Below are positions 11,400 through 61,560 of a stretch of DNA of 64,000 nt, one piece after another. The first letter of the stretch is position 1, and each line of letters opens with the position of its first letter. Made by a program: the position numbers and the translations under genes. The notes beneath the pieces were generated by a model. The model worked only from the letters and a program-made list of their open reading frames with translations. It was not told the DNA's origin and ran no database searches. The DNA is from Lepisosteus oculatus (Eukaryota; Chordata; Actinopteri; Semionotiformes; Lepisosteidae), in NCBI RefSeq assembly GCF_040954835.1, contig NC_090697.1, forward strand, positions 6,522,501 through 6,586,500. Reading direction: 5' to 3'.

Positions 11400-12479
11400 T
11401 TAATCCCAAAACCATTTCTCAAGATTAGGAATAGTCTTGTATTCTTTGTGTCTTTTAATATAATCACAGGTAAGACAAGCATGTTCTTCCCAAAAGAATG
11501 ACTTCTTCACCTTGAAGTACTTGTGCCAGGAAACGTACTGCAAATACATGTCTTCATTTTTGTCTAGAACCAGAAGATAATCGGCCAGTTCTTTTGGCGA
11601 AAGGAAATCATCTACATGAATAAAAGCATCTCCAGGAATGTAGTTCTCGTAGTTTTCTCTTGATGGTCCCAGGACAATTGGCACTGTACCGACCGATAGT
11701 GCATTGTACAATTTTTCTGTGATATAGTCTCTGTGGATTGAGTTTTCAAATGAAAGATAAAATTTACAGCTGGCAATAGTAGAGAGAAAGTTCTTATCAC
11801 TAACATATTCCCCAAACGCCTGACCGTAGGTGTTTATTTCAATGTGTTTGTATAAGTCATTGTAGTACTTTACTCTGGCATGTTCAGGATTCCAGTTGCT
11901 CACAATCCAGCAGACCAATTTGTTCTTTACTGGAACTTCAAAATCTGTAGGTATCCTGCTGGAAATAAGAGACCCATAAGGCACTTCAATGTCAGAGTCC
12001 CGTCTGTAACTTAAGGTCACATTGAAGAGGTTTTCAAGACCAGCTGTTTTTGGAGAGTGAGTGGGTGACTCCAAGTTCATCCACACCCATTTCTGGAATG
12101 GGGGCCGATACATTGGTGGCAGGTTGACTAAATCCCTGCTGATGTCTCTGTGGTGGAGAAGAACTGCGTCCGATTTATTATACAGATTCCTATCCACTGT
12201 TAAATGGCATCCATTGATTTGGAACAAAGAGTTACAAGAATTTAACTCAAAGGTCTGGCCGAATGGCCAAAGCCAGATAAGAATGACCGTGTGATTTAGG
12301 TCATTTTTTGAAGAGAAAAGGTTTTTCACCTTCAGTACTGATGTTGCTGACTCAATAGGACCTGATATCCAGCTACTGGAGGGCTTTATATACATAATTA
12401 TAAAAGTCACAAAGCAACCCAGGAAAAGGGTAGCAATTAAAAGGGGGCGTAGAATTCCGTGAACAGATGCAGATGACAT
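11400..12479 (-). CDS. FUT9: Alpha-1,3-fucosyltransferase 9, complete coding exon
   Basis: This Golgi type II membrane enzyme (GT10 family) transfers fucose from GDP-fucose to GlcNAc of terminal N-acetyllactosamine, making Lewis X (SSEA-1/CD15). The chosen ATG at 12479 gives 359 residues, the length of human FUT9. The ATG 14 codons upstream lies in intron sequence beyond the acceptor and is rejected. Visible features are a short cytosolic tail ending GILRP, a membrane anchor at residues 12-31, the acceptor motif HHRD at 109-112, and the GT10 motif at 240-271 (FENSIHRDYITEK, then NA..VGTVP). N-glycosylation sequons lie at N62, N101 and N153, positions I recall as shared with human FUT9. A CLTC pair is at 335-338 and the end is NLEKWFWD-TAA. 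The coding sequence is in one exon, as in other vertebrates. MANEA lies upstream on the same strand. Within the GT10 family the near-colinear FUT9 match and the synteny exclude FUT4 or FUT7. Confidence 0.98.
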   Translation of the reverse strand: MSSASVHGILRPLLIATLFLGCFVTFIIMYIKPSSSWISGPIESATSVLKVKNLFSSKNDLNHTVILIWLWPFGQTFELNSCNSLFQINGCHLTVDRNLYNKSDAVLLHHRDISRDLVNLPPMYRPPFQKWVWMNLESPTHSPKTAGLENLFNVTLSYRRDSDIEVPYGSLISSRIPTDFEVPVKNKLVCWIVSNWNPEHARVKYYNDLYKHIEINTYGQAFGEYVSDKNFLSTIASCKFYLSFENSIHRDYITEKLYNALSVGTVPIVLGPSRENYENYIPGDAFIHVDDFLSPKELADYLLVLDKNEDMYLQYVSWHKYFKVKKSFFWEEHACLTCDYIKRHKEYKTIPNLEKWFWD

Positions 12480-12510
12480 AATTTTTCCTATTAAAGAAAC
12501 AAGACAAAGA
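12480..12510 (-). other. FUT9: Splice acceptor and 5' UTR end of the FUT9 coding exon
   Basis: On the minus strand a T-rich tract (GTCTTTGTCTTGTTTCTTTA) leads to ATAG at 12488-12489. The exon then begins GAAAAATT directly before the start codon. This leaves only 8 bases of 5' UTR in the coding exon and shows that the remaining leader is spliced in from an upstream exon. Confidence 0.85.
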
Positions 12511-12949
12511 CAAACAAACATATAAATAATGATTCCTTGATATTACTGCACATGAGTCTTCTGGTTCTCTAACTGAATGCTTTTCAATAAAAACTGTATG
12601 TTTGGTTTTGAAACTTGTTAAAACACTGTACAGTATGACTAAATTGGAAACACCTGTTAAGTTATACAAAACATAAACTGCTAACAATGCTGAATTGCAT
12701 TTCAATTTTTGCATTTTGTTCTGATAAAAACATGGTTCTCAACAATTAAGTTCAAAAGCTTTCCTCACACAGTAGGTACTGATGCACAAATAGTAACAAT
12801 GCCAAAATTATTCTGTCTAAATTATTCAAATATTTTAAACCTAGATATCAAACAAGATCACAGTTAATGTGAAAGCACAAATTAGAGAATCCTGCATAGT
12901 ATCCAGTATCAAATGTGACACTGTCAAAACGAAAACATAATTTCAAGTG

Positions 12950-29079: not shown

Positions 29080-29510
29080 TGTCACGCTCGTAAACCCCTC
29101 CTCTTAAGGAGGCTCCGGCCCTTCCTTGTTCTGTACTCATCACCTGCACCTGCCTCCGGTTCCTGCCCCCCGTCCTATAAAAGCCTGGCGTTCCTGCCAA
29201 TCGGGGCTCAGCTTTGGAAGACGGACGCCCGGAAGCCCGCCTACCCGCGAGTCCAGGAGCGACTCAGCAGCATTGGCTTCTACGGCGTCCTGCCCTTCTG
29301 GGTCCAGGACTGGAGTGTCTGGTCCCGTTACCCCCTTTAATTCCCCCGACCCTCTGCCAGATCCCGCTCCGGCTTTTAACTCTGTTTGTCTGTCAGGATG
29401 GATTACCCGGTCTAGGACTTTTGCTACACTCATGGATTTGCCTCGGACTCCCTTGGACTGTTTGCCTTGGCCACACCTCCCCGAACACCCCCGAGCATGA
29501 TGACCTGACC
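29080..29510 (+). mobile_element. GC-rich LTR copy, 3' end unclear
   Basis: It starts TGTCACG, followed by CCCCTCCTCTTAAGGAGGCTCCGG, a TATA box in TATAAAAGCCTGGCG near 29177, and GTCTGGTCCCGTTACCCC. The same series of blocks is in the LTRs at 40281-40818 and, on the minus strand, 48628-49070. No target duplication was found, and similarity fades near 29505. The GC-rich strand contains long but domain-free open frames in both directions, which are compositional. Confidence 0.65.
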
Positions 29511-30755: not shown

Positions 30756-31739
30756 ATGAAAGCAATTCCAAGACCTTGGAATACTATCATCCCAGAGAAA
30801 CTAGTCAAGAAACTCAGTGCACTGGGTCTCAACACCACCCTATACAACTGGATTCGGGACTTTCTGACAGGCAGACCTCAGGCTGTCAGGCTTGGAAACC
30901 ACACCTCCGGCACACTAACTCTGAACACTGGGGTCCCACAGGGGTGTGTGCTTAGTCCATTGCTCTACACCCTCTACACCCACGACTGTAAGACCAAACA
31001 CAACACCAACTCCATCATCAAGTTTGCCGATGACACCACAGTTGTAGGTCTGATCACAGACAATGATGAGAGGGCCTACAGGGAGGAGGTCAATCTCCTT
31101 ACTACATGGTGTGATGACAACAACCTCACCCTTAACGTCAGCAAAACCAAGGAGCTGATCGTTGATTTCAGGAAACTGCAAACCGGACATGCCCCTATCC
31201 ACATCAACGGGACTGAAGTGGAAAGGGTCAGTAACTTTAAATTCCTTGGTGTCCATATCACCGAGGACCTCACATGGTCTCTCAACACCACCTGTCTGAT
31301 CAAGAAAGCGCAACAGTGCCTGTACTTCTTAAGACGGTTGAAGAAGGCTAAGATATGTCCCCAGATCCTCACTAACTTTTACAGATGCACTACAGAAAGC
31401 ACACTGACAGGCTGCATCACAGTGTGGTATGGCAACTGCAGTGCTGCTGACCGGAAAGCCCTACAGCGGGTGGTGAAAACTGCCCAGTCCATCACTGGGG
31501 TTACCCTCTCATCTATCCAGGACATTTATGACAGACGGTGCTTGAGGAAAGCTCTAAGCATCATCAAAGACCCCACACACCCCAGCTACAGACTTTATGA
31601 TCTGCTACCATCTGGAAAATGGTACCGGAGCATTCAGGCCCGGACTACCAGACTCAGAGACAGTTTTTACCCCCGCACTATCAAACTGTTAAATTCCCAG
31701 CCTCTCTCACTCTCACCTCACCTCTCACCTACGATCTGA
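30756..31739 (+). CDS. L2-type LINE reverse transcriptase, 5'-truncated, frame intact
   Basis: This is the carboxy-terminal 327 codons of a non-LTR retrotransposon polyprotein, which copies element RNA at a nicked chromosomal target. The frame starts inside the palm at WNTIIPEKL (family ..DFSSAFNTI), so the endonuclease and the first catalytic aspartate are lost. Then follow [16 protein letters not shown] (palm block B), [11 protein letters not shown] (catalytic Asp pair at about residues 89-90), [56 protein letters not shown] and [16 protein letters not shown]. There is no stop within 984 bp, so the insertion is comparatively young. The first ATG is not a natural start. A more decayed relative is at 44985-47997. 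L2 assignment rests on these motifs and the 3' tail. Confidence 0.9.
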
Positions 31740-35000: not shown

Positions 35001-35290
35001 ATCCATCCATTTTCTAATCACGTCTTCAAATTCAGGGTTGAGGAGGAGCCAGCGCTGGTCACGGAAAGCAACAGGCAGAAGTTAGGGTACACCCTGGACA
35101 CGATGCTAGTCCATTGCAGGCCACAGACACAGACACACATGGACACTCACAACTAGGGCCAACTTCCCAGAAGCCAATTAACCTTCTGTGTTGACTGGCT
35201 AGTATGTTTCTGGACTGTGGGAATAAACCAGAGCACCCGGAGGAAACCCATGTGAACACCGGGAGAACGTGCAAACTCCAGTGCTGCAAG
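35001..35290 (-). repeat. tRNA-derived SINE, minus strand
   Basis: It starts ATCCATCCATTTTCTAATC (the complement of the GGATGGAT tail) and continues with GTACACCCTGGACACGATGC, GCCAATTAACCTTC, TTTCTGGACTGTGGGA, CCGGAGGAAACCCATGTG and GGGAGAACGTGCAAACTCC. These are the complement of the SINE parts at 40024-40280 in reversed order. The tRNA-like head is truncated at the right end near 35290. Confidence 0.8.
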
Positions 35291-36571: not shown

Positions 36572-38805
36572 TGGAAGCAGGGCTCAATAGTCAAAGTGTC
36601 TTTTTTTCTGATTTTCAGCGTGGAATTAACCTCAACTTATTCTTTGTAGCTTGCATGACTCTGCTCTCCACTCCAACATAAATATATAGGATTATTCTCC
36701 CCAAATACTGCCTTATTTTTTTTAAACAAAGATGCTTTTATACTTATTTTTTTCCAAGCCAAAATAGAATAATGCTTCAGATACTGACACAAGCTAGTTG
36801 GAGAATAGGGTGGTATTAAGGTTTCACAACAAACATTAAGAATGAAAAGAGTGAGATGGAAGACTGGCTGGGTTACTAAAAAGAATTCCCTCATCACCAC
36901 AGTAATGTAGTCAACAACAATAAAAGATTATCTATAGCTTTTTAAATAATACCTCCAGACGGAAGGAGCTTTCTTCCCAGAAAGATATCTTCACTTCAGT
37001 TAAGCCGCAGTCTATTTCTGTTGAGCTCAGAAATAAAATGATGAATAAGAAGAAAACCAAGAGAAGACTTTACAGAGGAGTGTCTGCACTAGACTGTGAA
37101 AAATGGAGCAGTCAAACAATAAAGTTGGGGCAGCCTCACGCTGTTGAATACAACTGATGATGTGTGTTTGGGACAGCTAAGAGGTTGTGCATGTACATAT
37201 ACAAAGCTAAATTTTAAACACAGATCTCATCATTAAAGTACATATAACATACAGGATATATTTGGTTAATTTATTCAAGGCACATATACTGTATATAACA
37301 AACCAATTTTCTTTGCAACATCTTTCACTCAATATATAAAACACTAGGTGAAAATACTGTATGCCATGGTACACATACTGTACTGTAAATTACGTATACA
37401 GTGTATAATTATAGCTGTTATCTTCGTGTTGTTTTAATTTTTATCTGGTCAAATATTTTTTGGTTCTTCTATCACTCTCTGAAACATCTAATTATCTTTT
37501 ATTAATAGGTCTTTTTATATCTATAGGAGTATACAGTAAATTAAAGAACCTCTTTTTGCAGTAGCGTCATATGTCGATATAAGGATTGTGTGTGTAACTC
37601 TACTTGATGGTACATTGTGAAAAAATACCAAGACAATTTCAGAATGTTGTTGACGATATACAGTATAGTAATGTACTATATATGATATTGAGCTTATTAT
37701 TTCACGTGAGACAAAGCAATAAAGACAAGACATTAGGAACGAAGACATCTCGTAATATTAAGGTAATATTAAGATAAGATAATGCTTAAACGTGATATTT
37801 AATCTAAATATTAGTGATGTTTAATCTAATACCAGTAAGATTGATAAATACTGTAGGTACTGAGATGTCTTTGAACACGTTGTGCAGTCGCAAAAAAAAA
37901 AACAGCACCACGTCAAGTTCTGAACGAAGCATAGTGGTATTGACATCAAAATGAAACATGCTATTAAAGACAGAATAACTCCAATATCGTATTCTAGAAA
38001 TGTTACGTTTTCTCTGTGGCAAATTATTTTACAATACATCTTCTGCGGTGGTATGCCAAATAGTCTCCGCACCGTGAACACTACCTGATCTCATACAAAA
38101 TGACATCAGCGGTCGTGTCTAACCCCTTGGCAAAAAGCCAGCAACCTGTCCACTTCTTTGATATTTGTAAAATCTTTGAGTCACACTAATTATTCTTTAA
38201 TTCGAGCATCACGTAATAATTTGAAGTAACACCGTGTTTATATCCTATTTCGAAACATTTTAAAAGATCACGATAGTGTTTTATTTTACAGCCAGCGTGC
38301 AACAGAAACGTGGAAAGGACCCACGTACGTCTATTTGGTAGTGAGAAGACAACTGAAGACAAATTTTCGTTGGGGACTAAGGTCATTTCTGGTATTTCGT
38401 GGTGGCCTTTTTAAATAACGTTTTAAATTCACGAATATCCCATGCCGAATATTTTATATTTAAACATTTCGTTGTATACAGGTCTTGTCCATAATAAGAA
38501 TAATTGGTCGTCTATAACATTTTTACACTTGCATCACTCGGCATAGATATACAGTAACTGCCTTATGCTCCTCCAACTCAGTTTCTCAGAAACAGTCGCA
38601 TTCAATGAATAATAAATCAGGCGAATTACAACAAAGGGCATTTTCATGCATGGTGAAGCGCAGTCTTCTAAATGCAAAATGCACCTGAAGAAAACGCTTA
38701 ATTTCTCGTAATCCGTATTCTAATTTAACAAAACCAGGTGAAGGTAAGGCACTGCAGGGTAGTGCTATTGTGTGGTAACATTAAATAACAAGTCCAGTAA
38801 CTCAC
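36572..38805. other. Intronic; CpG content rises toward FUT9 exon 1
   Basis: No gene. From about 37860 rightward CpG dinucleotides become frequent (AACACGTTG, CACGTC, TCCGCACCGTG, AGCGGTCGTG), in contrast to the CpG-poor intron. This is consistent with the downstream shore of a promoter island. Confidence 0.45.
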
Positions 38806-40023: not shown

Positions 40024-40858
40024 AATTCCAGACCTGGGGTGCCATTTACAAGGAGTTTGTGTGTTCTCTCTGAGTTCTCATGGCCTTCCTGCGGGTGCTC
40101 CAGTTTCCTCCCACAGTCCAAAAACATAGTGGAACTGTAGGCTAATTGGCCCTGGTGTGAATGTGTGCATGTCTGTGTCCGTTTGCCTTGGGATGGACTG
40201 ACGTTCTGTCCAGGGTGTATCCTGCCTTGTGCCCATTGCTTGCTGTGATAGACTCTGGCTCCCCCACAACCCTGAATCGGTGTCACGATTGTAATCCCTC
40301 CCTCTTAAGGGTGCTCCGGCTCTTCCACAATTTAGTTGATTTTGTGCACTTGCTCCCTGTTCCAGCCTCCCTCCAAAAGCCAGACACTCACTCTGTTCCG
40401 GGCTCTGCATTGGAACACAGATGCCCAGAGGCCCGTCTGCCACCAAGTCGCCCTACGTCCGTGGTTCGAGGGCATAGACCTCCTATCGGCGTCCCAAACC
40501 AGCCGAGTCTGGGACCTGGAGCGCCTGGTCCCGTTACCCTTTTTAATTTCCCCGACCCTTCACCGGATCCTGCTCCGGTTTTTAACTTTGTCGTGTTGTC
40601 ATTTGGATTCCCTGGTTTTTGGACTTTTGGACTTTGCCCCGGTTTTCCCCCTGGACTCCTTCGGATCTGTTCGCCTGGACCATGCCCCCCTGAGCACCAG
40701 TGCACACTCATCACGCCCCCCTGTTCGTCTACCAGCCCAGTTCCTCGTCTCCTCCCCGTGTCTGTTCACTTCCTTCCGGATTCTGCTGTCTGCATAGGAC
40801 CCTAAAAGATGCATAACAATTGGATGAAGTGGTTAGAAAATGGATGGATAATAAATAA
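40024..40858 (+). repeat. tRNA-derived SINE interrupted by an LTR
   Basis: The left part (40024-40280) reads CCAGACCTGGGGTGCC, GCGGGTGCTCCAGTTTCCTC, CCCACAGTCCAAAAACATAG, GGCTAATTGGCCCTGG, GGGATGGACTGACGTTCTGTC and GGCTCCCCCACAACCCTGAA. The right part (40819-40858) continues ATTGGATGAAGTGGTTAG, AAAATGGATGGATAA. Removing the LTR and one target copy restores the expected SINE join CCTGAATTGGAT. The tRNA head is absent. Confidence 0.8.
40281..40818 (+). mobile_element. Solo LTR nested inside a SINE
   Basis: It starts TGTCACGATTGTAATCCCTC and ends GATGCATAACA. The flanks are ATCGG (40276-40280) and ATTGG (40819-40823), a 5-bp target duplication with one transition. Blocks shared with 29080 and 48628-49070 include CTCTTAAGGGTGCTCCGGC, GTCTGGGACCTGGAGCGCC and TGGTCCCGTTACC. 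The long open frames on both strands within it are by-products of its GC content. Confidence 0.8.
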
Positions 40859-43335: not shown

Positions 43336-43385
43336 CAAGTTAAATTAAAAGAGGTTTAGTCACAATCCTGGTTTGTTATAGAAGT

Positions 43386-43535
43386 TCAGGTAGGTACAGT
43401 AGCTGCGTCAGCATGCCTAGGCAGCAAAGGAACAAGTAATAGGTTTATTCCATGCTGAAAAAAAGAAGAAAGAAAACACGTTTCGGCTGTGGAGCCTTCA
43501 GGTGTGAGAAAGACAGGGCGGTAAGCAAAGGTAAT
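43386..43535 (-). mobile_element. Penelope-like element terminal repeat, minus strand
   Basis: On the minus strand it reads TCTTTCTCACACCTGAAGGC, TCCACAGCCGAAACGTG, TTTTCTTTCTTC, TTCAGCATGGAATAAACC and TATTACTTGTTCC, then GCATGCTGACGCAGC...TACCTGAAC. The same blocks occur at 50395-50520, 58171-58333 and after the GIY-YIG remnant at 60780-61560, which links them to a Penelope-like element. It contains a broken hammerhead-like core at 43478-43506. Confidence 0.7.
43478..43506 (-). ncRNA. Broken hammerhead-like motif
   Basis: Minus strand: CACAC, CUGA, stem II GGCU-ccac-AGCC, GAAACGUG. Three bases of the CUGANGA core are deleted, while stem II (U-A pair) and GAAACGU are kept. Confidence 0.45.
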
Positions 43536-49070: not shown

Positions 49071-49478
49071 GTTTTGATTGTTTTAGACTCATTGTTTTTG
49101 CTTTGTGGAACCTTTTCAAATCTGATTAAAACCCCACCTAGTGTCAAGGTTAGCATTTCCACACTCCTTAGACATTTTTTAGGCTAAGTGCTGGATTTTG
49201 AGTCCCTTTAGAACGAGTGATAATTTGCTCCAATCTGAAACTTTTTTTTCTGAGACTTTTGCCTGCCTTTGTTGTACAATATATTGCAGCGCTTAGAAAT
49301 TGTATTTGAAAACTAAGTCTGATTCAAAGTTGTAAGAGCACCTGTTCTGCTGTAGACCATCAGTTTCAAAGACCTTTTTTCAATCGTTTGATTGTTTTAG
49401 ACTCATACCTTTTGGTTTGAGGAACATTTGAAAATCTCATGACTAGAGGGCTTTAGAGACATATTTCAGGACTGCTCT

Positions 49479-49724
49479 TGTAGCGAATTTGGGTTCTTTG
49501 GGGTTTCTGCCCTTGCCGCTCCTGCCCCAGTTCGTCCCCTGCCTCAGGATTGAACCGGAGACTCCAGCGTCACACAACAGGGATATTGCCCGCTGAGCTA
49601 CAGAAGGCCTTTGTCAGTCTGGGCGGCCAACATCCCTGTTATGTCCAGGGGAGTAGAGGACAGTGCCGTCACCATGGTGCAACCAGCTCCTACAACCTGT
49701 ACAGTATGTCGGCCGTTCGTTACA
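49479..49724. mobile_element. 246-bp inverted-repeat element with a tRNA-like core
   Basis: The ends are TGTAGCGAA and TTCGTTACA (9-bp inverted repeats, one mismatch), and CTCT is duplicated on both sides (49475-49478 and 49725-49728). Comparison with the next array unit, which has GCTCTGTTGACACC uninterrupted, confirms the insertion point. On the minus strand, starting at 49607, an A box TAGCTCAGCGGG (49600-49589) and a B box GGTTCAATCC (from about 49556) lie at tRNA positions 8 and 52. The acceptor stem is mostly pairable. The anticodon stem is poor, so this is not a functional tRNA. Confidence 0.65.
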
Positions 49725-50394
49725 CTCTGTTGAAGCCCCAGCAAGGGTGAGCATTAGTATTCCTACACTACTTAGACAGTTTTTACACTCATTGCTGGAT
49801 TTTGAGTCCCAAGGGAACATTAGGACAAGTGATAATTTGCTCCAATCTATAACTTTTGATTTCAGAGACTCTTGGCTATCTTTATTGTATATTACAGTGC
49901 TCAGGAATTGTATTTGAAAACTGTGTCAGATAAAAAGTTGTAAGAAAACCTGTTCTACTGAAGACCATCAGTTTCCAAGAGCTTTTTATTTGTTTTGATT
50001 GTTTTAGACTCATACTGTACTTTTTGGTTTGAAGAACATTTGCAAATCTAATTCCTGGAGGGCTTCATATACAGATTGCAGGAATGCTCTGTTGACACCC
50101 CACGTAGAGTTAGGGTTAGCATTTCCACACTCCTTAGACATGTTTTATGCTCAGTGCTGGAGTTTGGGTCCCAAGGGAACATAAGGACAAAATTGATTAT
50201 TTGCTCTTATTTGAAACTTATTTTTTGAGACTTTTGGCCACCTTTGTTGTACGTATATTGCAGCACTCAGGAAGTGTATCCGAACACTGAGTCAGATCAA
50301 AAGTTATAAGATAACCTGTTCTACTGAAGACCATAAACTTCTTAGAGCTTTTTTTAAAGGTTTTGTTTTAGACTTTTTGGTTTGACTCCAAAAA

Positions 50395-50520
50395 GCTGTG
50401 ACTGCCCTGTCTTTCTCACACCTGAAGAAGGCTCCACGGCCGAAAGGTTGTGTTTTCTTTCTTCTCTTTTCAGCATGGCTCTGTCCTCTTGCTATTGTAT
50501 ACTGTATCAGGAAAATAAAG
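50395..50520 (+). mobile_element. Penelope-like terminal fragment within the array
   Basis: GACTGCCCTGTCTTTCTCAC, ACCTGAAGAAGGCTCC, ACGGCCGAAAGGTTGTG, TTTTCTTTCTTC, TTTTCAGCATGG match the tail downstream of the GIY-YIG remnant at 61500-61560. It interrupts an array unit after GGTTTGACTCC. Confidence 0.7.
50417..50456 (+). ncRNA. Hammerhead-ribozyme-like motif, decayed
   Basis: CACAC, then CUGAAGA (fits core CUGANGA), stem II GGCU-ccac-GGCC, GAAA, then GGUUGUGUU. CACAC can pair with the trailing GUGU as stem I. The base after GAAA is G where relatives have C, which breaks the short palindromic ACGU stem III. Penelope-like elements are known to carry minimal hammerheads of this layout. Confidence 0.55.
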
Positions 50521-51340
50521 TATATGCCCAGCAAGGGGGGTGTAATGTCTTGTCTGTTTATCAAACATAATCTACAATTATGGACAACCATTTTTGCCAT
50601 GGTTGTGAATATTATAATACTGTACCTCTGAAGTCACATCCAATCTTCCTGTAAAATTAAAAAAACACAGAAATACAAGCGGGCACTGATTTATGTCCAG
50701 GATACTCCAATGCCCCAGAAAGTGCCCATTCTCCCCCTTTGAGCCACTGCCCACCAAAAGGTCTCTCTGCACGTCTCTGCGCCGTGCACATGTCCAAATT
50801 CTGTCCTTGTCCAAAACTTTTACAGTTTGGGTGGCGCTGTGCACCACGCGGTACTTGTGTCCCGAGTCGTTCGGATCAAAAGTTGTCATCAAGCATTTAT
50901 GAATCTCACTTAATTGCAAGAGCTTTGATAAACAGTCTTGTTTCCCACTCAAACCTTAGGTTTGGAGAATATTTCAAAATCTGATGCCCAGAGAGGCTCA
51001 GATATCGATCGCGGAAATGCTCTGTTGACACCCCAGGTAGGATTAGGGTTAGGATTCACACACTACTTAGACAATTTTGAAGCTCAGCGCTGGATGTTTG
51101 GGCCAAAGTCAGGTTTAGGATGGGTAGTTTTGTAGTCCTATCTGAAATTTTTTTTTTCAGAAACTTTCTGGGGCCTGGGTGGCACAATTCACCATGTGGT
51201 ACTTTTATCCCGAAACTGAGTCAGTCGGATCAAAAGTTGTCACCAAGCATTATTGAATCTCATTTAATTGCAAGAGATTTGATCAACGGTCTTGATTGTA
51301 TCTTTAGGTTTGGGGAATATTTAGAAATCCTCTAATTTAA

Positions 51341-54020
51341 GTACAAGTGTATTATTAGTGGATCCCATAAGTCATTCTCTTGATTGCATTTATAAAGTTT
51401 ATACTGCATATGTCATATACACTGTATCAATTAGACTACAAATATAAATTTGAAACTGTATCATGTTGCGATCTGTCAGACATTCATGCTTTATGAACTT
51501 TTGCCTGAAAGAGTGAAAGAGTGAGCTAATGTTACATTACATTCCCACTTGTGTTTGATCCCAACCAGAAATGGCTATATGAATAGTCAGAGTAGCAAAT
51601 TTTCATTTTTGTGTATAAATAACTTAAAAGCCATAGGGTAAAAGGTGACCCAGATTTAGCAATAACTCAGTTTTGCAGAATGGAGATTTCCTGTTTGGCT
51701 ATAATAGAAAAATGAATATGCTTTCTCCGTTAAAATACAAAAGACGAAAATAATGTGATGCAGCACATTCCACAACACACACACACACTTTACTAAGCTG
51801 TTTCTTTTATTGAGTTTTATATGAGATATTATAGACTTTATTTCATTTCAAACTGCCATACTGTGCCATCAACCTCTGCGACATCAACTGCAAGCAGCAG
51901 TAAAATATTATTTACCAAAACAACTAAACATGTTGCTCAGATTTTTAAATGTTAAATTAAAATTCACATAAAGAAAGACCACATGCTTAATACAGAATTG
52001 TGAAATCACTGTAATGTCCCCCAGGAACTATGTAATACAGCTGCAAGAGCAATAGGCTGTAAATCATTTGCATCTGATAAAATGCTTTTTAAGTAAATTA
52101 TTATGGTACACAGTGCACCCTCCAACGTAGAAAGAGCAAATACATTACAACAATAACAATGATGCTAGTTTTGTGTGTTTAATATAAGCGCTTATTATTG
52201 TAGTACAGTAAATACTGTAGCAGTACTTTGTCGCTGTGCTCTCACCATTTGAACATTTGCAGTTGGAAAAAATTGGAAAACTAAAAGAACTTGTTCACAT
52301 AATGGAGAGCAGATCCAGACATCTCTCAAGAAACAGTGCAATGAGATCTTTGGACCAATTAAGACCTTCCAAAGTGTCTAGATGGACCAAATTACCTCTA
52401 CTCTTTTGTAATCATATTGCTACGTATGTTCAAAAGGTAGCTGGTACTGTATTTAACATACATACAATTATTTTCCAAATCAACATCTGTAAAAATCATC
52501 TTCATTATTTTTAAGAAGCTGTAAATAATATGGCTTTATAAAAGTAATTAAAAACATTTTTAAATATTTAACTGTGTTAGAGAGGTTCTTCACCCAAATC
52601 CAAAATGGAGGCCAAATGATTCCACCTCTTCATTATCATGGAAAGGGTGGAACATGGTCCGCCATGTTTTAAAACTCTACTATGTTCTATTTTAGAGAAC
52701 TACAATTTTTTAAATTCCTTAGATTTGATTAAAAATCCAAAATGGTGGTAAAGTCGTTTAATCTGCCAGCAGAACTTTGACTCTGATGTAACGTCCCATA
52801 ATTTTACAGTCTAGGGGGTTTGGCATTTCACAGCAATTTTAAAAGTGGCAGAGGCAAAAATAAAAAGGACTTGCCACAGTTCCCAAATATAACATTTAGT
52901 TTATGCACAGGTCTGAGGTGTTGTTGTACATTTCGGTAACACAGCAGTAAGTTAGCTGTCAACAGAAAGGAGACATTCAGGAAAAGAGAGGAAAATGAGT
53001 TAAGACACGGGCTCAGCCGACTGAAGACAGTTTTCACACCTCTTTAAAAATAGCATCTCTTAGAGTATGGTGAATTGAAGTCACAAGCCTAAATCATATT
53101 TAACCCTTGAATTGAATTATTTTATGTATAAGGCTCATCAGCCTGCTCACTGGAGAGCATCTCAAAGCCTTTGTTTTGAACTGTGAACATCAAGTTTATG
53201 AAAACAGAATGTGAATGTAAAAAAATGAAAATTGTGAAGTACTGCATATCTGGCAAAAATAGCAAGTCTTATTAATGTCTGAAGAGTGTAGGGAGAGGAT
53301 TTGATTTTCATACTTCTCTTAAAGAATATGAACTAAATAAAGAAGTATGAAAGTATGTTAAGAGTACTTATCTTAACTCTGTAAACTACAAATACAAATT
53401 TAAAATGAGCCTTACATCACTATATAATTTTACAGTTATGGGGTCTGTCATTTCCTAAGAAAAATGAAATGACAAATCACAAATTTAAAAAATATAATCT
53501 AATTTACTTTTGGCATGGTTTTCAATTTTCCCCACTATCCAAAAACCAGAGGTACGAGATCAATGATCAATGAATTTAGAAGCAGTAGCACAGTGCTCTC
53601 GTTCAAAACAATTCATGCATTGCACTGCAAAAACACTGAAACAAAAGACAACCCAAATAATGAGAAACATGACACACATTGTTCTACACAGTTTATAAAA
53701 AAAAATATCTAAATACTTAAATCATTCATTACGAAACAAAACACTTAAATCAATTCAATTTGAATTTAAGAAACTCTCACCGAACAGGAAATTATAACAT
53801 TTCACAATTTTAATTATGTTTGGCCAGCATGGGAATCTTGAAAGATTACCGTTTTGTAAAACTTAACATTAAACACCTACTGACCAACAAAACAGAATTT
53901 ACTGTACATATTAGTGGTTTCCTTTCTGTCTCGATCATTTGTCTGATACATAAAATGAACGCATAACCAATAAAATGAGAGAGGCATTTTCAGTTTATAC
54001 ATTCTTCCAGTTTCCCTGTT
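51341..54020. other. Intergenic, 3' of MANEA
   Basis: No gene. AT-rich, with a short AC run near 51775. A minus-strand ATTAAA near 53806 could serve as a MANEA polyadenylation signal, but this is weak. No repeat boundary recognised. Confidence 0.4.
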
Positions 54021-54657
54021 TCATATGAGCCACTTCTCTCTTTCTTTAGTGAATCTTTCAGCCCATTTGCGGGTAATATCTAAATATATACTTGGTTTAT
54101 GAGGCAGGTAGTCCTGATAAGTGTTCAGAGCAGATGTTTTTGGCACTGCTTTCTCGATTTGAGTTCCTTCATGCCACTCGTTAAAAGAAGTTATAGAAAC
54201 AATATCTGTCCTTGCTTCCAAGGCAGCACTAAATGCTGTTTCGTAGTATTTTCCATTGATGCGGTGTCGTGTGTTGTGGAAGTTCCACGGTCTGATACTT
54301 GTGTCAATATAACCAGGCCCAACACTCGGAATGAACATCAGATTTTTGCTGTCACAGAACCTTTTTATGGATTTCCAATTACGATGTGATGAACCATAGG
54401 AGAATCCATTTGTGGCAAAATACGTGTACATGCCATCAAACCCAGCTGTCAAGATGCCTGTCTTGTGCTTCTCTTCCACAAGGAGACCAATAAAAATGCC
54501 GTCATATGGAGTGTTCCTGATGCTGTGTTGGCCTGTATCTTTGAGGAGACGTGCCCACATTTCAGGACTAATCAAATAGGAATCATAAACATAAAACAGT
54601 GGATGGAGCAACCCAGTGTTTGTTTTGTATCTGTAGAAAGCAGGGTGGTCACCATAC
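54021..54657 (-). CDS. MANEA: MANEA, last coding exon (211 codons plus stop)
   Basis: MANEA is a Golgi GH99 endo-alpha-1,2-mannosidase that removes glucose-substituted mannose from N-glycans that bypassed the ER glucosidases. This exon begins after TTTCTTTCCACAG with the third base of a lysine codon and YGDHPAFYRYKTNTG. It contains FYVYDSYLISPEMW, SIRNTPYDGIFIGLLVEE, GFDGMYTYFATNGFSYGSS, FIPSVGPGYIDTSIRPWN and SITSFNEWHEGTQIEKAVPK. It ends KWAERFTKEREKWLI-TAA. The two glutamates of EWHEGTQIE are the GH99 active-site pair. The exon is open throughout. The paralogue MANEAL is the main alternative, but adjacency to FUT9 in the conserved order favours MANEA. Confidence 0.95.
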
Positions 54658-55964
54658 CTGTGGAAAGAAACAGGTACACTTCACGTGCTAAGAAATAATC
54701 AAACTTAAACAAAAAAATGTAATTAAGGGCAGCCAAGTTTGCCTGCAATATGAATCACATGCAACCTATCTCATGAACCACACACATTTCCCTATTACAT
54801 TAATCAGTCAGAAACTTGGAAACGAGAAACTGGTAGATCATACAGAAGGTCAGGACAATATTTTATTTCCCTGGCACTCCAATTCCCTGATTTTGCATCC
54901 CATAGAATACACCCACCCAAATACATTTAATTTACTACCCAAGCTAAAAAATAGAAACTCTGGCACCGATTCCACATCACTCAGATTGAAAGGAGTTCTT
55001 AGCTCATAGTCCACCGTTGGTAGATTTAAAAAATGAAAACTGCTGGCAAAATGATGAGTTTTGCTCTTTTGAAATGGACATACTGTAAGAATAAAAGACT
55101 AGTACACAATAAGTATAGTATATAATAATTATAATACATTTTTGCAGTAAACAGGCAGCTGAGAAGACCTTGATTGCAGTTCTCATACTGACAAAAATAT
55201 TTTAAGAGTTAGAACAATGGATATTGTTTTCCCACATTTAAACTCCTAAAGGAGAAGTAGTTTTCAGAAGTCAGGCTTTTAAATGGGACTGCCCACAGCT
55301 GCACTGTAGCTCATCCACCATCAATTCTCTAAAGCTGTGGCTCTCCAGCAGGCAGTGGTTGTCATTATTTGCCATTATTTCCCTGCTGTGGGAAGAATGT
55401 GACCTGAGGTCTTTTACCCAGAGAGCACTCAATCCTGGACCCGAGACCCTGAGTGTGCGGATACCTAGGCGGAGTTCTGTTAACCCATAACCATAAACCA
55501 ATAACAAACCTGACACCAGAGAGCATAACCCAAGGTTCTTTTAAACATAAACCTCATACGACAAAACACAACCACCCCGAGAACATACCCACCAACATAT
55601 ACCATAACCTTCACCTGTAACCAGATATAAACGATAACATTAGCCCGTAACAGTGTTGTATAACCACGTAGACAGATCTATCTCCCATTATTCCATAACC
55701 ATTAACCACCAGGTGTTTTCTCTTTCATATACAACTAGATGTTTTTTAGAAAATAGCCCCCTTGGGGATTATTACTAACCATGTGTACTCCACTCCTTTC
55801 CCCAGGCAAGAGCCACTACTTCCCCCCAGCCTGAGGGCTTACCCACTATTGGATCCTCACAAACACTTACAGACTCCAAGCTCACGGTAACTCTCTTAGC
55901 TACCTCACTGCATAAAGTGGATTTACCCACTGAATGAGCATTTTTCCTTCTTGGTACCAGGTTA

Positions 55965-56665
55965 CACAAAAGATGTTGCAGCTCTGTAATCCATCCAGAG
56001 AAGAGTACCTAGATACTGTACATTCAGGGCTTAAGGGAACAAACTTTTCAGCATTGAACAGAGAAGACTGAGGGGACAAGATACAAATATTCAAGGCATT
56101 AGAGATAAGATCACTTTATTGGCCATACACAATTTCTTGTGATAGGAATTTATCTTTATTCGCAGCTTGCTCTCCATGAGACACAGAGGCACATGGATGA
56201 GGCAAGAGAAGCTTCGAGCCAGAGTGCAGGGTCAGCCATTTATACAGCGCCCCTGAAGCAGTTGGGGTTAAGGGCCTTGCTCAGGAGCCCAACGGAGTAG
56301 GATTCCTCTGCCGGCCGCGGGATATGAACCGGCAACCTTCCAGCCACAGGTGCACATCCTTAGCCACAGAGACCCAAGTCAACCCTGTGGATTTCTTCAA
56401 AATAAAAACACTGAAGCATGAGGGGCAAGTGGAATCTATGTGGAACTAACTGCATTTAAAATAGAGAACAGGAGGATCTTCTTTACCCAAAGAAAAAGGG
56501 GAGTACGGAACAAACAACCCAACTATGTTGTTGAAGCCAATACCCTGGTTTCTTTCAAGAAATGCATACAGGAAATCCTTGGATCAAGTAACTAACTACT
56601 AACAGTCTAATGGACTGGATGGGTTGAATGGTCTCCTCTTATTTGTAAGCTTTCTTATGTTTTTA
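55965..56665 (+). pseudogene. LINE ORF carboxy-terminal remnant, split by a SINE
   Basis: 55965-56108 reads KRYRE-like text, then EQRRLRGQDTNIQ. After the SINE the frame continues VNPVDFFKIKTLKHEG and later YVVEANTLVSFKK, EILGSSN, GLNGLL-type end. This is the terminal segment of a fish LINE reverse transcriptase ORF. Joining the two sides across the SINE restores the GI..VNPVDFF order also seen at 41128. Confidence 0.6.
56110..56370 (-). repeat. tRNA-derived SINE nested in the LINE remnant
   Basis: On the minus strand the head is GGTCTCTGTGGCTAAGGATG with B box GGTTCATATCCCG near 56330. The body has GGCCCTTAACCCCAACTGC and CTCCATG...AGCAAGCTGCG, and the tail is AGAAATTGTGTATGGCC, AATAAAGTGATC. 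Same family as 17145-17398. Confidence 0.75.
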
Positions 56666-56689
56666 CATCTTCTGAAAATCTAAATTTAC

Positions 56690-57060
56690 TCTACTGGATG
56701 AACAGTGTATGTATATCTAGTGCTGCTAATGCTTGTTCAAAGATGTCTAACAACTTAAATAAGACCTACCTTTTCTAAATCTATATCAGCTATCCCTTAG
56801 AATTATATTTCCATACAGATGATCCTCTAGTTGAACTCTTATTATTGTTTCTATAACCTTACATGTAATAGAAGTAAGATTTATTGATCTACATTGACTT
56901 GGTACAGCTTAATCACCCATTTTTATTGACGGGAGCTACATAAGCAGTTTTCCAGTCAGTGGATATTACCCGTCTTGAGAGACTGCTGAGTTTGCACTCC
57001 AGAAAAACTGAATACCACCAGGACACAGAGATATGTTTGTCTTCTATGCTCATATTATTT
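56690..57060 (-). pseudogene. LINE reverse transcriptase remnant, minus strand
   Basis: On the minus strand it reads STDWKTAYVAPVNKNGD, then SINLTSITCKVIETII with a frame slip. It is the DWK.A.V.P..KKGD....Y.PI.LTS..CKV.E.II segment, as at 16800-17120. A different orientation from the remnant immediately left shows that these are two insertions. Confidence 0.5.
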
Positions 57061-58170
57061 AATATAGAACTAAAACATGTTGTTGATTTCTATCTCGGAA
57101 AACACCTAAGTGAAACATTCACTTAAAACATCGGACATTTTCCTTTCACAGTCTAGATGTTTTGTTATATTATCCCTGAGATTCTTTACTTTATCCTTTA
57201 CATTTGTCTAAACAGCTAAACATTTTCTTTTGACCTTTCTTATATCCCTATCACTTGTATTTGGAACTCATTAAATAGATTTTTAACTAGTCCATTTTGT
57301 TTTTGATCATTTATAAAGTGCTCTATTTCTCCTTATATTTGTCTTAATTGATTGATTAAGCCATCTTGAATGTTTGAATAGATTAGACAACTATAAGCAT
57401 TCCCTCAAGCTGGAACATTGACTGTCTGAAAAAAAAACTGCCATTACAGTTTCTTCTGCTGACATTCCCAAGTTTTCCCAGTTCAAATTAAAATTTCCAA
57501 TGAAAACAACCCCTAACCTCATTATGCAAATTTGCATTACAATTTATATTATACAATATAGTATCAAAGATATTCTTAACATGTAAATCAAGATGGAATA
57601 AACAGTATATACTTTCTGCTATGTGGCTATATGCTTTGTGGCTGGGACTAAATTGTTTAATTTGATAACTGATGAGAGTTATCAACAGGGATATATACAG
57701 TAACTGAACTACAGCTAATGTAAAGTCACCAACAAGTGTGAATATGTTTGCAAAAGAGAAATTATGGTTGATGACTTTCTGCAAATGAATGTTTTATCAC
57801 TTTTGCTATTTCCTGCACTTGTTATTTTTATTTTTGTATTCAATAAACGCTTCTATTTTAATAACTCTACAGTTATTTTATTACATGCCTCCTACGGTTG
57901 ACTGCATTTGTTTGATTTGCATCTTATTTAGCTTTAAGCTATTGGTTACTAGTACTTTCTAGATTAAATGAAGTATTACATTGCTTGTTGCTGCTGACTT
58001 TCACTCAAGTGGACAGATTCATGTACATGTAACCCATTAGGGTGGGAGACAACATGTACCCATCATTTTAGAAAGCTGCAAACAAAAAGCTTTGCTTTGA
58101 TCAATTAGAAAAATGAAAATACAGTTACTCTTAAGTAGTCTACTACAACTAACTCAGTTTTGGAATTAAG

Positions 58171-58333
58171 GAGCAAGTAATAGGTTTATTCCATGCTGAA
58201 AAGATAAGAGAAAAAACCTGAGTTTTCAACTGAGTGTTTTGTCTCTTCTCTCTTCAGCATGGAATAAACCTGTTACTTGTTCCTGTGCAGACTACGCACG
58301 CTGACGCAGATACCCACCTGAACTAGTTTGGGA
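58171..58333. mobile_element. Penelope-like terminal repeats as a foldback
   Basis: The left arm, GAGCAAGTAATAGGTTTATT, CCATGCTGAAAAGATAAGAG (58171-58214), is the inverse of the right arm, CTCTTCTCTCTTCAGCATGG, AATAAACCTGTTACTTGTTCC (58243-58284). The spacer is about 30 bp. The right flank GCTGACGCAGATACCCACC, TGAACTAG equals the outer flank of the copy at 43386-43535. No hammerhead core is left in the spacer. Confidence 0.7.
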
Positions 58334-58430
58334 ATTATGTACCCATGACTACAAAGTCCAAATTAAATTAAATTGAAAACTCTTACATAATTAAAAAAGA
58401 ACAAGAGGAAAGCAGACAAAAGGCACTCAC

Positions 58431-58507
58431 TTCTCTACAATGTACTTAATGTTGTTGAACATGCTCAGGTCATCTCGTCCTTTATATGGCTCAATGTGAA
58501 AGGTGAC
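58431..58507 (-). CDS. MANEA: MANEA internal exon (77 bp)
   Basis: It is bounded by TTTTCACAG on the 5' side and GTGAGTGCC on the 3' side (minus strand). It encodes VTFHIEPYKGRDDLSMF, then NNIKYIVE and two bases of a lysine codon. HIEPY belongs to the GH99 barrel. It is phase 0 at the start and phase 2 at the end, matching the exons on either side. Confidence 0.95.
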
Positions 58508-59008
58508 CTGTGAAAACAGACATTACAAGCAGCAGGTACTGTAGATTGATTTCTGTTCAGGAATACAAACGTGTTAACAAGTACAAGTATTAAACTGAAG
58601 GGGAATGAAAAATATTTTTCTCTTCTCTTATTTCTCTGTACATTGTACTTACAAACCTACTACGATAGTATATGTAAACTGTAGAACACTGTGCCAAACA
58701 AAGTGTTTTAATACACTTTACATTGCTTTATTCCACTTATTGAAATAGGATAATTTTCAACCACTACAACCTAGTACATTTAGCAAATTGCTACAATGGC
58801 TAAAACCTTCATTTAGAAATTTGTTCAAAATGATCAAAGATAAAAATATACTCTCCTTTACAATCTTGCTTACATCCTACCCTTGAGCACACCGATAAAA
58901 TGATAAACCTACAGTCTTGTAGAATTAACATTTAAGGAAAAAAGTAAAGAATGCAGATTTTAACTGTCTATGGATTTATTTTTAAATAGCAGGTTCATGA
59001 AGACATAC
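58508..59008 (-). other. MANEA: MANEA intron (501 bp)
   Basis: A short phase 0 intron, GT...AG on the minus strand, AT-rich, no repeat recognised. Confidence 0.9.
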
Positions 59009-59118
59009 CTTCACTTGATATTTATGAGCAATATCCATGATGAGAAGCACCAGATCATCAGTGGGCTCACCATTGTCATCCTTCATGCCAGGTGGATACC
59101 AAGACAGGGCCAGGACAC
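59009..59118 (-). CDS. MANEA: MANEA internal exon (110 bp)
   Basis: It is preceded by ACATTTTATAG and followed by GTATGTCTTC on the minus strand. It completes a glycine codon, then reads VLALSWYPPGMKDDNGE and PTDDLVLLIMDIAHKYQVK. SWYPP...DDNGEPTD is a conserved GH99 endomannosidase block. The end is in phase 0, continuous with VTFHIEPY of the next exon. Confidence 0.95.
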
Positions 59119-59484
59119 CTATAAAATGTAAACTTTAGGATAAGGAGATACATACAATGTGGGGAGGTATCAGATTACAAAGCTTGGTAAAGGTAAAGGT
59201 AGGTTATTACTAACTTACCTTAAACCCTGTATTACTATGAACTTTAAACCCTGTAATCTTATTCCTTTTCCTTTCAAAATTCACCAAGTAGGACTGACTA
59301 TATAACTTTGAGATTATATAGTTTGCCTGTGACAAAACAAATACATTATTAATTAAGCACCTACTCCGTGCCTTTAGTTGTATTTTAATATAAGTTAAAT
59401 ATAGGCATTTAGTAGTTTTCACCGTTGTTCTAGTCTATAGAAACAAAGGTTTTTCAGACGTTTTTCAGTACTGCTTTGTGTTTG

Positions 59485-59650
59485 ATATGACAAATCAAAT
59501 CAAAGTTTATTTATCAAATGCACAACAATACGGCGTGCAGCAGTAGTTGCTGGCAATGAAATTTCTTTTTCTGCGAGCTCACAAAAATTACAAGAATCAC
59601 AAAAATCATAGAAATTCACAAAAACACAAAAATCACAAAATTTAGGTTAC
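59485..59650 (-). repeat. LINE/SINE 3' tail, minus strand
   Basis: On the minus strand it reads GCCAGCAACTACTGCTGCAC, GTATTGTTGTGCATTTGATA, AATAAACTTTGATTTGATTTG, the 3' tail pattern of L2-related elements. It is flanked by short CACAAAAATC repeats (59580-59640). Confidence 0.5.
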
Positions 59651-60359
59651 ATTTTTTAAATTGAATAAAACTCAATGTGAATAGAGCTGTTATGTGTCCA
59701 TGGTGTATGCAATATATACATGTAGTGCAGTTATGCTGAATATAGTGAGAATTGTGTGTCCATGTAGCCATTACAGGTGATTTGCTAAGGAGCTACAGGT
59801 TGGCTATTTTACAGTAACTATTAAAAACATAATCCACATGATTTTTTTAGCCTTTTTAGTTTTGTAATTCCAAGATTAATACGATGTGGACCATCAGGAA
59901 ATAAGGAGAACAGCAAACCAGAACAGTTTGCACTTGACTGAAATGACATCCTACAAAAAAAAGAGACCATATTTCTGATGGGTGTAAAAATAAGTACTGG
60001 GGCTACAGGGTTCACAGACCATGACTTCAGAAACATAAGGGTTCTGGATCATTCAGGGATAGACAATGATCATTAATGCTAGAAAAAATGTATTGGTCAT
60101 AGGTTGTATTTAAATAGTTTAGTTTTAATGTCATTTTTTACCTGGGTCACTGTTTGTATACTGATCATCAAACGAAACATGTCACAAATAAAAAAAGTTA
60201 TTCTGCAACAGTTGTTTTGACATTTTACTCAATAAGGGTAAGACAGGTAAATTCACTATGCTGATCATCCACAGGACTGATAAACCGGGAGTCTACTGTG
60301 AGAGTGGACTAGAAGTCTGCTGGAAGTAACACAAACTATACAGTACATGTGCGACTCAT

Positions 60360-60700
60360 ACTTTGTGTCACATTGCAGATGCTGTCTTGTGGAATTCTGT
60401 CCCTTTCCTCTTGTATAGACTGGATAAGCGTGTGCTTATTCTCTATGTCCGATATCTCATCCTAGCTCATCCCACAAATGTTCTAAATGTCTCAAGGTTG
60501 GTAAGGAGGGCATTCTCAGCATAACTGTCAGACTTTTACCTAGTTACATGAACAGAATGAAGACAAGCGTTTTCCTACTGGAACTTTTTCACTTCAGGGT
60601 GAGCCTGCAGGAAGTGCAGCAAGTAAGGTTCCAGGACCTGATGAATGAAGTGCAATAGAGTCAGGCACACTTCACTAGAAATATGGCACAGATTGCCCAA
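60360..60700 (-). pseudogene. Tc1-like transposase remnant
   Basis: The plus strand shows GCTGTCTTGTGGAATTCTGTCC, CTCATCCCACAAATGTTCTA, then GGGCATTCTCAGC, CGTTTTCCTACTGGAAC and GGTTCCAGGACCTG. This is the complement of the catalytic-half coding sequence of a Tc1-like family, where (minus strand) W.E..QN...V.DEL and related words occur. Heavily decayed. Confidence 0.4.
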
Positions 60701-60779
60701 ACCATCACATCCCTAAGCATCGTATCCTGCACACCCACCAAGTCTATCAGAGTGGTCTACACAAAATCTTAATTCACCA

Positions 60780-61560
60780 ACACACCACTAGCATTAACGT
60801 ATATTTAACTACTCCATTTTACAGGACGATCCCTCCATCGGTACCCTTTTTTCCGACCGCCCAATCAGCTCTTTATCACCGACCACCCAATCTACGTAAA
60901 CTTCTGGTTCACAGCTCCCTTGACCGCACTCAGCAATCATCCCCAGCAGGCACCTTCCCCTGCAACAGAACTCGCTGCATCACCTACAAATACATATCTA
61001 ACAACACGCTCATTCAGGGCCACACAGGTCAATTCTGGATTACCCAGATGACATCCTGTACCTCCAGCAACCTTATTTACTGTATTTTCTGCAACAAAAT
61101 GCCCAGCTATCTTTGCTGGGGAAACCGGACGGAGACTAGAAGACTGCTTCAGAGAACGTGTTCTGGCTGTGAAGATTAAAGACTTCTCCAAGCCCATAGT
61201 TTCTCATTTCACCTCAGATGGCTATGATCACACTGATCTCTCTGTTCTCAAAAAAGGGTTTCTCAACTCCCATAGCAAAAAGACAACAGAAACTAAACTC
61301 ATCCTGAAACTAGGTTCACACCATCCCCCTTCTCTCAATGACCGACTTATTTTCGTGTAGTCTTCTCTATTCTCATGCAAGTTTTTTCTTCACCCCTCTC
61401 CACTTTCCACTTCCCGAGTAGCCTCTTTGCCCCTCCTGCCTCCTCCCCTCTCCCAGCTTTTGTTCTTCTGTGCTATTTAATCTTTGCTGTCTGCCCTGTC
61501 TTTCTCACACCTGAAGAAGGCTTCACAGCCGAAACAATGCATTTCCTTTTCTATTCATAT
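60780..61560 (+). pseudogene. Penelope-like element, GIY-YIG carboxy terminus and tail
   Basis: Penelope-like elements encode a reverse transcriptase followed by a GIY-YIG endonuclease. Here only the end survives, in several frames. NLRKLL-type linker traces are followed near 60950 by CNRTRCITC (Cys-rich motif before the nuclease), then TSSNLIYCIFCNK and, one frame over, CPAIFAGETGRRLEDCF. Then the intact stretch VKIKDFSKPIVSHF..DGYDHTDLSVL, ETKLILKLG and SLNDRLIF-V-stop at 61360 completes the domain. The 3' trailer reaches a tail shared with 43386 and 50395. The reverse transcriptase is absent. The Cys-rich linker suggests the Neptune-type group. Confidence 0.75.
61506..61541 (+). ncRNA. Hammerhead-ribozyme-like motif, decayed
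   Basis: CACAC, CUGAAGA, stem II GGCU-ucac-AGCC, GAAA, CAAUGCAUU. The CUGANGA and GAAA core is intact, and stem II has U-A where the copy at 50417 has U-G. The stem III palindrome and the distal stem I strand are mutated, so cleavage is unlikely. Confidence 0.5.

Follow-up and report, generated by a model that had tools for sequence, protein, structure and literature searches.

Minimal hammerhead ribozymes are already known from Penelope-like elements (PLEs), and the family described here, found in a 64,000-nucleotide stretch of the genome of the gar Lepisosteus oculatus (hereafter the window; C2:6522501-6586500, contig NC_090697.1, of a 1.2-Gb assembly in 813 contigs), is a further case. The closest described ribozyme is that of Poseidon_Ac (PAc) from Anolis carolinensis, which cleaves in vitro, the protein of the element being required (Frangieh et al. 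2024, PMC11167929). Mutants of the Poseidon ribozyme were without effect on insertion in vitro, and no RNA ends were detected at the cut site (PMC11167929). In the portion of that paper drawn on here, the RNA runs CUGAGGA-U-GCCU...GGGC-GAAA-CGU-C. Penelope-like hammerheads reported earlier (Cervera & de la Pena 2014; Lunse et al. 2017), for which partial review descriptions are our only source, resemble the gar family in being minimal type I ribozymes associated with pseudo-long terminal repeats (pseudo-LTRs), a palindromic stem III loop, and proposed dimers, and the same review extracts describe Penelope hammerheads as minimal, without helix III, perhaps cutting as dimers, and having a role that is "still a mystery." According to the available extract of PMC3846280, the Penelope elements of Adineta vaga share with the gar family an optional tail, head-to-head inverted pseudo-LTRs, and 5' truncation, but the canonical ones are present at very low copy number, whereas the gar genome holds 9,715 exact tails. 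Metazoan retrozymes, as portrayed in the part of PMC7229834 used here, carry canonical type I hammerheads in short tandem units and co-occur with PLEs. Further literature was drawn on in part (PMC6155905, PMC10085705, PMC6466107, PMC7761336, PMC11014351, PMC3088659, PMC1564403, and PMC6431247).

A first-pass annotation of the window had pointed to three hammerhead-like cores in Penelope-like tails, and all three were located there when the window was re-read. The explanation that we favor, and consider probable from sequence comparison, is that an abundant Penelope-like retrotransposon carries a minimal type I hammerhead in its pseudo-LTR/tail and that the three are decayed copies of it, catalysis and a role for the element being part of that judgment. 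That a hammerhead-type motif lies in the tail of a PLE is held more surely than the explanation as a whole. The motif, the size of the family, its linkage to coding sequence, the orientation pattern, and the likeness of the layout to Poseidon are all shown by the sequence analysis. The family features in the window are the following.

50418..50453, plus strand: hammerhead copy with a complete core, found by motif read-out, core pattern, and descriptor; reads ACAC CUGAAGA A GGCU CCAC GGCC GAAA GG U U GUGU
50418-50421 / 50450-50453, plus strand: its 4-bp stem I, ACAC / GUGU
50422-50428, 50429, 50442-50444, and 50445, plus strand: its CUGAAGA, extra A, GAA, and A15.1
50430-50433 / 50438-50441, plus strand: its stem II, GGCU / GGCC
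50448 and 50449, plus strand: its U16.1 and U17, with the predicted cut at 50449/50450
50399..50478, plus strand: block common to other tails of the family, from upstream CTGCCCTGTCTTTCTC to CAGCATGG
61507..61542, plus strand: decayed hammerhead copy that keeps stem II and CUGAAGA/GAAA but has lost U16.1 and two of its four stem I pairs; reads ACAC CUGAAGA A GGCU UCAC AGCC GAAA, then CAAUGCAU
43475..43506, minus strand: decayed hammerhead copy with AAG deleted from the core and the 3' side shortened by about three more bases; reads, from 43506 to 43475, CACAC CUGAAGGCU CCAC AGCC GAAACGUGU
43383..43479, minus strand: long tail downstream of the 43.5-kb motif, common with the 58.2-kb copy
58168..58324, no strand assigned: head-to-head tail pair of the same family without a hammerhead core, arms 58168-58217 and 58234-58324

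The 50.4-kb copy is the only one in the window with a complete core. As three core bases are lost in the 43.5-kb copy, CUGAAGA is common to two copies rather than three, and the 43.5-kb copy does not retain a CUGANGA/GAAA core. The head-to-head pair is a fourth family tail, outside the three first recognized. The core pattern, with up to three mismatches allowed, matched twice in the window and never in 100 shuffles. A hammerhead descriptor, which was composed after the motif had been seen and permits zero or one extra base after A9, matched only at 50422 (with stem I, U16.1, and H17) and 61511 (without these), whereas 60 simulated windows of 64 kb had on average 0.1 cores and 0.017 full motifs each. 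Chance is no explanation for the window match. The three copies are relatives and not independent of one another.

The family extends far beyond the window. In 364 kb, comprising the window and 300 kb sampled from the genome regardless of the motif, a tail profile gave 28 matches (26 from the first 314 kb, with E <=0.02, and 2 from the remaining 50 kb). The 16 that cover the ribozyme, weak ones and the window's three included, were aligned; the remaining 12, which lack the ribozyme part or retain it only in a cut or heavily degraded form (L012, L014, L018, L023, L034, L039, two in L025, one in L027, both 58.2-kb arms, and a weak match at window position 36574), were excluded, which raises the share of paired cells reported below. 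The consensus of these homology-picked copies, TCACACCTGAAGAAGGCTCCACAGCCGAAACGTTGTGTTTT, is exactly the motif, with the layout ACAC-CUGAAGA-A-GGCU-NCAN-RGCC-GAAA-CG-U-U-GUG(U). Like the 50.4-kb copy, it contains the CUGANGA and GAAA core; stems I and II pair throughout, and the cut region reads A-CG-U-U, supplying A15.1-U16.1 and H17, with A15.1-U16.1 paired in 12 of the 16 copies. Exact matches were then counted on both strands of the whole 1.2 Gb, the same pattern read backwards serving as the control. The full minimal hammerhead (stem I, CUGAAGA, stem II, GAAA, ACGU, and U17; 35 places) occurs 4,652 times against 0 in the control, and the ancestor that had been proposed from the three tails, GAAACGUU, is therefore correct. 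The core with A at position 11.4 (27 places, A or T at N7, ending CGT) was counted 785 times and that with G (26 places, ending CG) 5,916 times, each with a control of 0, and the comparison between them rests on slightly different patterns; A11.4 is the majority form among the 16 copies, yet the rarer one in these counts. The downstream tail has 9,715 exact matches (control, 0), and in the stretch of C1 spanned by both lists of 100 places, an exact tail lies 48-57 nt downstream, on the same strand, of 35 of the 59 full motifs. Two aligned copies (L031:1912-1952 and L029:7945-7985) have another stem II loop (CUGC and CAGC, respectively), followed by AACC/AAUC, and may represent a separate subfamily that has a stem II of its own. 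At C1:6500569-6566353, ten full motifs with tails stand in one direction, six of their nine spacings being 6,442-6,447 bp; this is a tandem array in which each unit carries one Penelope tail.

The connection of the motif to a PLE, which the first-pass annotation had offered as its own conjecture, is borne out in this genome by coding remnants, protein matches, and head-to-head tails. The relevant coding feature in the window is as follows.

60679..61357, plus strand: Penelope-like coding remnant in two successive frames (60679-61176 and 61052-61357); 148 nt separate its end from the 61.5-kb tail match downstream

A translated search of the 364 kb with this remnant found six places, namely the window (the query itself), L015, L016, L019, L020, and L021. 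The motif lies on the same strand at all six, 148-174 nt downstream in the five that could be measured; at L015, the translated match begins 268 nt before the motif and continues into it. The L016 remnant, LIYCISCSKCPAIYIGETGR, is a candidate Penelope-type GIY-YIG endonuclease, and related sequence occurs at five other places, one of them in the window; its AlphaFold prediction was poor (mean predicted local distance difference test score, 42.1) and was not used. The window remnant itself had no GIY-YIG match in Pfam and only weak matches below the cut-off in PDB, Pfam, and PHROGs. A protein search of the whole genome gave 5,272 first-look candidates; 150 of them were scored, and all 150 match, with frames of up to 795 aa; four open frames of 632-795 aa include the coding-remnant match. 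Tail orientation follows a consistent pattern, as all 10 pairs of neighbors less than 1 kb apart among 100 listed tails are head-to-head (-,+), as is each of the 6 pairs this close in a list of 100 full motifs, with 6-30 nt between motifs, and the same inverted arrangement is seen at 58168-58324 in the window. At C11:21081526-21085779, two 724-aa frames with a Penelope-like match run in the same direction at a distance of 3,987 bp, as expected for tandem copies of the element. On C14 and C18, some protein matches fall into groups whose members have the same score and frame (e.g., three on C18, each at 132.6 bits), suggesting either segment duplications or very recent copies.

With the Poseidon bases assigned to hammerhead positions by our own alignment, the two ribozymes share CUGANGA, one extra base, a 4-bp stem II, GAAA, and CGU, followed by H17; both also have ACGU, a stem III reduced to A15.1-U16.1, and a place in a PLE with the tail downstream of the ribozyme. 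An extra base between A9 and stem II thus appears, from the aligned sequences, to be common to the gar family and to a ribozyme that cleaves. The two differ in stem II, which is GCCU/GGGC with a long loop in Poseidon and GGCU/RGCC with a 4-nt loop in the gar family. In Poseidon, the open reading frame (ORF) begins inside the ribozyme; in the gar family, no ORF start was located. Cleavage has been demonstrated for Poseidon and is predicted for the gar family.

If the gar motif acts in the same way, the predicted cleavage site lies after the U that follows ACGU (U17/G1.1). Within one molecule, stem III would consist of A15.1-U16.1 only, so that activity would most likely need a second copy or a protein. 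A second copy could contribute by pairing its ACGU with that of its neighbor to form a dimer, and such dimeric action would fit both the ACGU palindrome and the literature; alternatively, the helper could be the element's own protein, as for Anolis Poseidon in vitro. Catalysis, the dimer or protein help, and the step that is served are what we infer. In the alignment, 14 of the 16 copies, including two of the window's three, extend past the predicted cut to the CAGCATGG tail stretch or a recognizable form of it, the 61.5-kb copy and L029 having no clear extension of this kind. The RNA template of those 14 insertions was therefore uncut at the 3' site, which makes it less likely that the ribozyme defines the inserted 3' end. 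It is more likely that the ribozyme would trim or separate element RNAs in tandem or read-through transcripts. A speculative extension, to which we give only a small chance, is that the base inserted between A9 and stem II in both the gar family and the protein-assisted Anolis ribozyme marks a distinct Penelope-specific subclass of hammerheads, inactive alone and switched on by the element's protein or a neighboring copy, and that the G closing pair of stem II could have spread by disfavoring a competing hairpin predicted for the A form.

Several results weigh against the favored explanation, and they are best considered together with a rival in which the element conserves the motif for some other reason (protein binding, a role as primer or initiation structure, or coding close to where the ORF starts), its hammerhead likeness being a relic or coincidence with no cutting now. 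We regard this as unlikely. The gar motif has the CUGANGA/GAAA core and three-helix plan of the Rfam hammerhead families but departs from them in its extra base after A9, near absence of stem III, and lack of long loops. The extra A is present in all 16 aligned copies, and the canonical core is without it. With E values of up to 10, no Rfam hammerhead model matched the three window copies or the intact L016 copy, in scans run without a known Penelope hammerhead as a positive control. The whole window likewise gave no Rfam match at the gathering score, the best sense-strand match of the intact L016 copy was U6atac (14.1 bits against a cut-off of 33), taken as chance, and a genome-wide scan with Rfam Hammerhead_II gave no matches, which is uninformative as that model was also silent in 14 of 14 controls. 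Predicted folds were mixed. For the 50.4-kb copy alone, the best fold is a different structure (-12.0 kcal/mol), and the A11.4 consensus prefers the competing hairpin (-8.5 versus -7.9 kcal/mol); the G11.4 consensus folds most stably into hammerhead stems I and II (-7.9 kcal/mol), the 61.5-kb copy into stem II only, and the 43.5-kb copy into two helices resembling stems I and II.

The variation among copies does not add support for the structure. In the 16 copies, 83.3% of pair cells are standard (79.7% in helix I and 89.1% in helix II), compared with at most 44.4% in a slid-partner control that is biased toward any structure read off the consensus, but shuffled alignments gave 83.7%. Two-sided changes were found in 1 cell against a shuffle mean of 1.3, and the covariation score was likewise not above shuffles, in a test that has low power as the variation is mostly decay. 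The stem II covariation claimed at the outset did not survive: U10.4 is constant across the window copies, only its partner differs (A or G), and this change is one-sided, so that there is no covariation at pair 10.4-11.4, for which the exact genome-wide patterns give 5,916 U.G and 43 C-G. As a test of selection, genome-wide substitutions were compared between A6, which is essential (59 copies), and N7, which is free (72 copies), but the test did not discriminate and was discarded. Changes at the two positions are about equally rare, which indicates that variants within the genome are mostly post-insertion decay, and within-genome variation alone therefore cannot show selection for structure. 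This limits the structural claim without contradicting the consensus. To these points the relic rival can add that most aligned copies continue through the cut site and that the Poseidon mutants inserted normally in vitro, with no RNA ends detected at the cut site (PMC11167929). Against it, the consensus core positions, the registers of stems I and II, U16.1, and H17 all fit simultaneously, and the layout agrees with that of a ribozyme shown to cleave. A second rival, in which the motif belongs to a non-autonomous retrozyme-like or short interspersed element (SINE)-like element borrowing Penelope tails, seems to us very improbable. It gains from the co-occurrence of retrozymes with PLEs described in the extract of PMC7229834, and from the 10 of 16 aligned copies, those at 43.5 and 50.4 kb among them, that have no coding match nearby in the sampled 364 kb, a finding that also counts against the favored explanation. 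Truncation at the 5' end is expected to leave copies that lack coding sequence, but a borrowed tail gives the same picture; what tells against borrowing is that all six coding remnants in the 364 kb lie upstream of, or run into, the motif, and that retrozyme hammerheads are, in that same extract, canonical and arranged in short tandem units, whereas the gar motif is minimal. Chance resemblance in an unrelated repeat could be entertained while just three related copies were visible and given the lack of an Rfam match, but the low descriptor expectation, the intact genome-wide consensus, and the 4,652 exact full motifs contradict it, and its probability is negligible. The GIY-YIG assignment of the L016 remnant, which falls below the Pfam cut-off (E = 0.1), is a further weakness of the favored explanation, and it is the copies without coding remnants together with pairing not above shuffles that have reduced our confidence in that explanation as a whole.

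The remaining observations concern other sequence collections and the rest of the window. In collections of phage, viral-contig, and prokaryote-genome sequences, no relatives were found; a peptide pattern fitted 16 stretches, but none of these held up. Matches of looser patterns to 3 viral and 7 bacterial contigs were taken as chance. Other features of the window are as follows.

49121-51297: diverged tandem-like repeats around the 50.4-kb tail, 66-88% alike, at spacings of 354-933 bp
29310-29385 / 40516-40591 and 35030-35279 / 40052-40277: further repeats within the window, direct and inverted
11400-12539, minus strand: fucosyltransferase (Glyco_transf_10, E 1.4e-69), probable host gene
54024-54680, minus strand: partial glycosyl hydrolase family 99 gene (E 1.4e-100), probable host gene
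30756-31736, plus strand: open frame with reverse transcriptase (E 1.6e-18) and ALKBH8_N-type (E 2.6e-16) domains; long interspersed element (LINE)-like remnant

The identification of a minimal hammerhead in the Penelope-like tails of this genome, upheld by the consensus and by the genome-wide counts, is largely what specialists would have expected, and its points of use are the extra base that is apparently shared with Poseidon and the copy number. The Rfam hammerhead models also overlook the one intact copy scanned (L016). Given that the layout agrees with that of a ribozyme tested biochemically, both the predicted cut site and the need for a dimer or protein are directly testable, and the thousands of exact motifs in the gar genome, many of them beside a tail in known orientation, make the family good material for work on the role of the ribozyme in Penelope-like elements.

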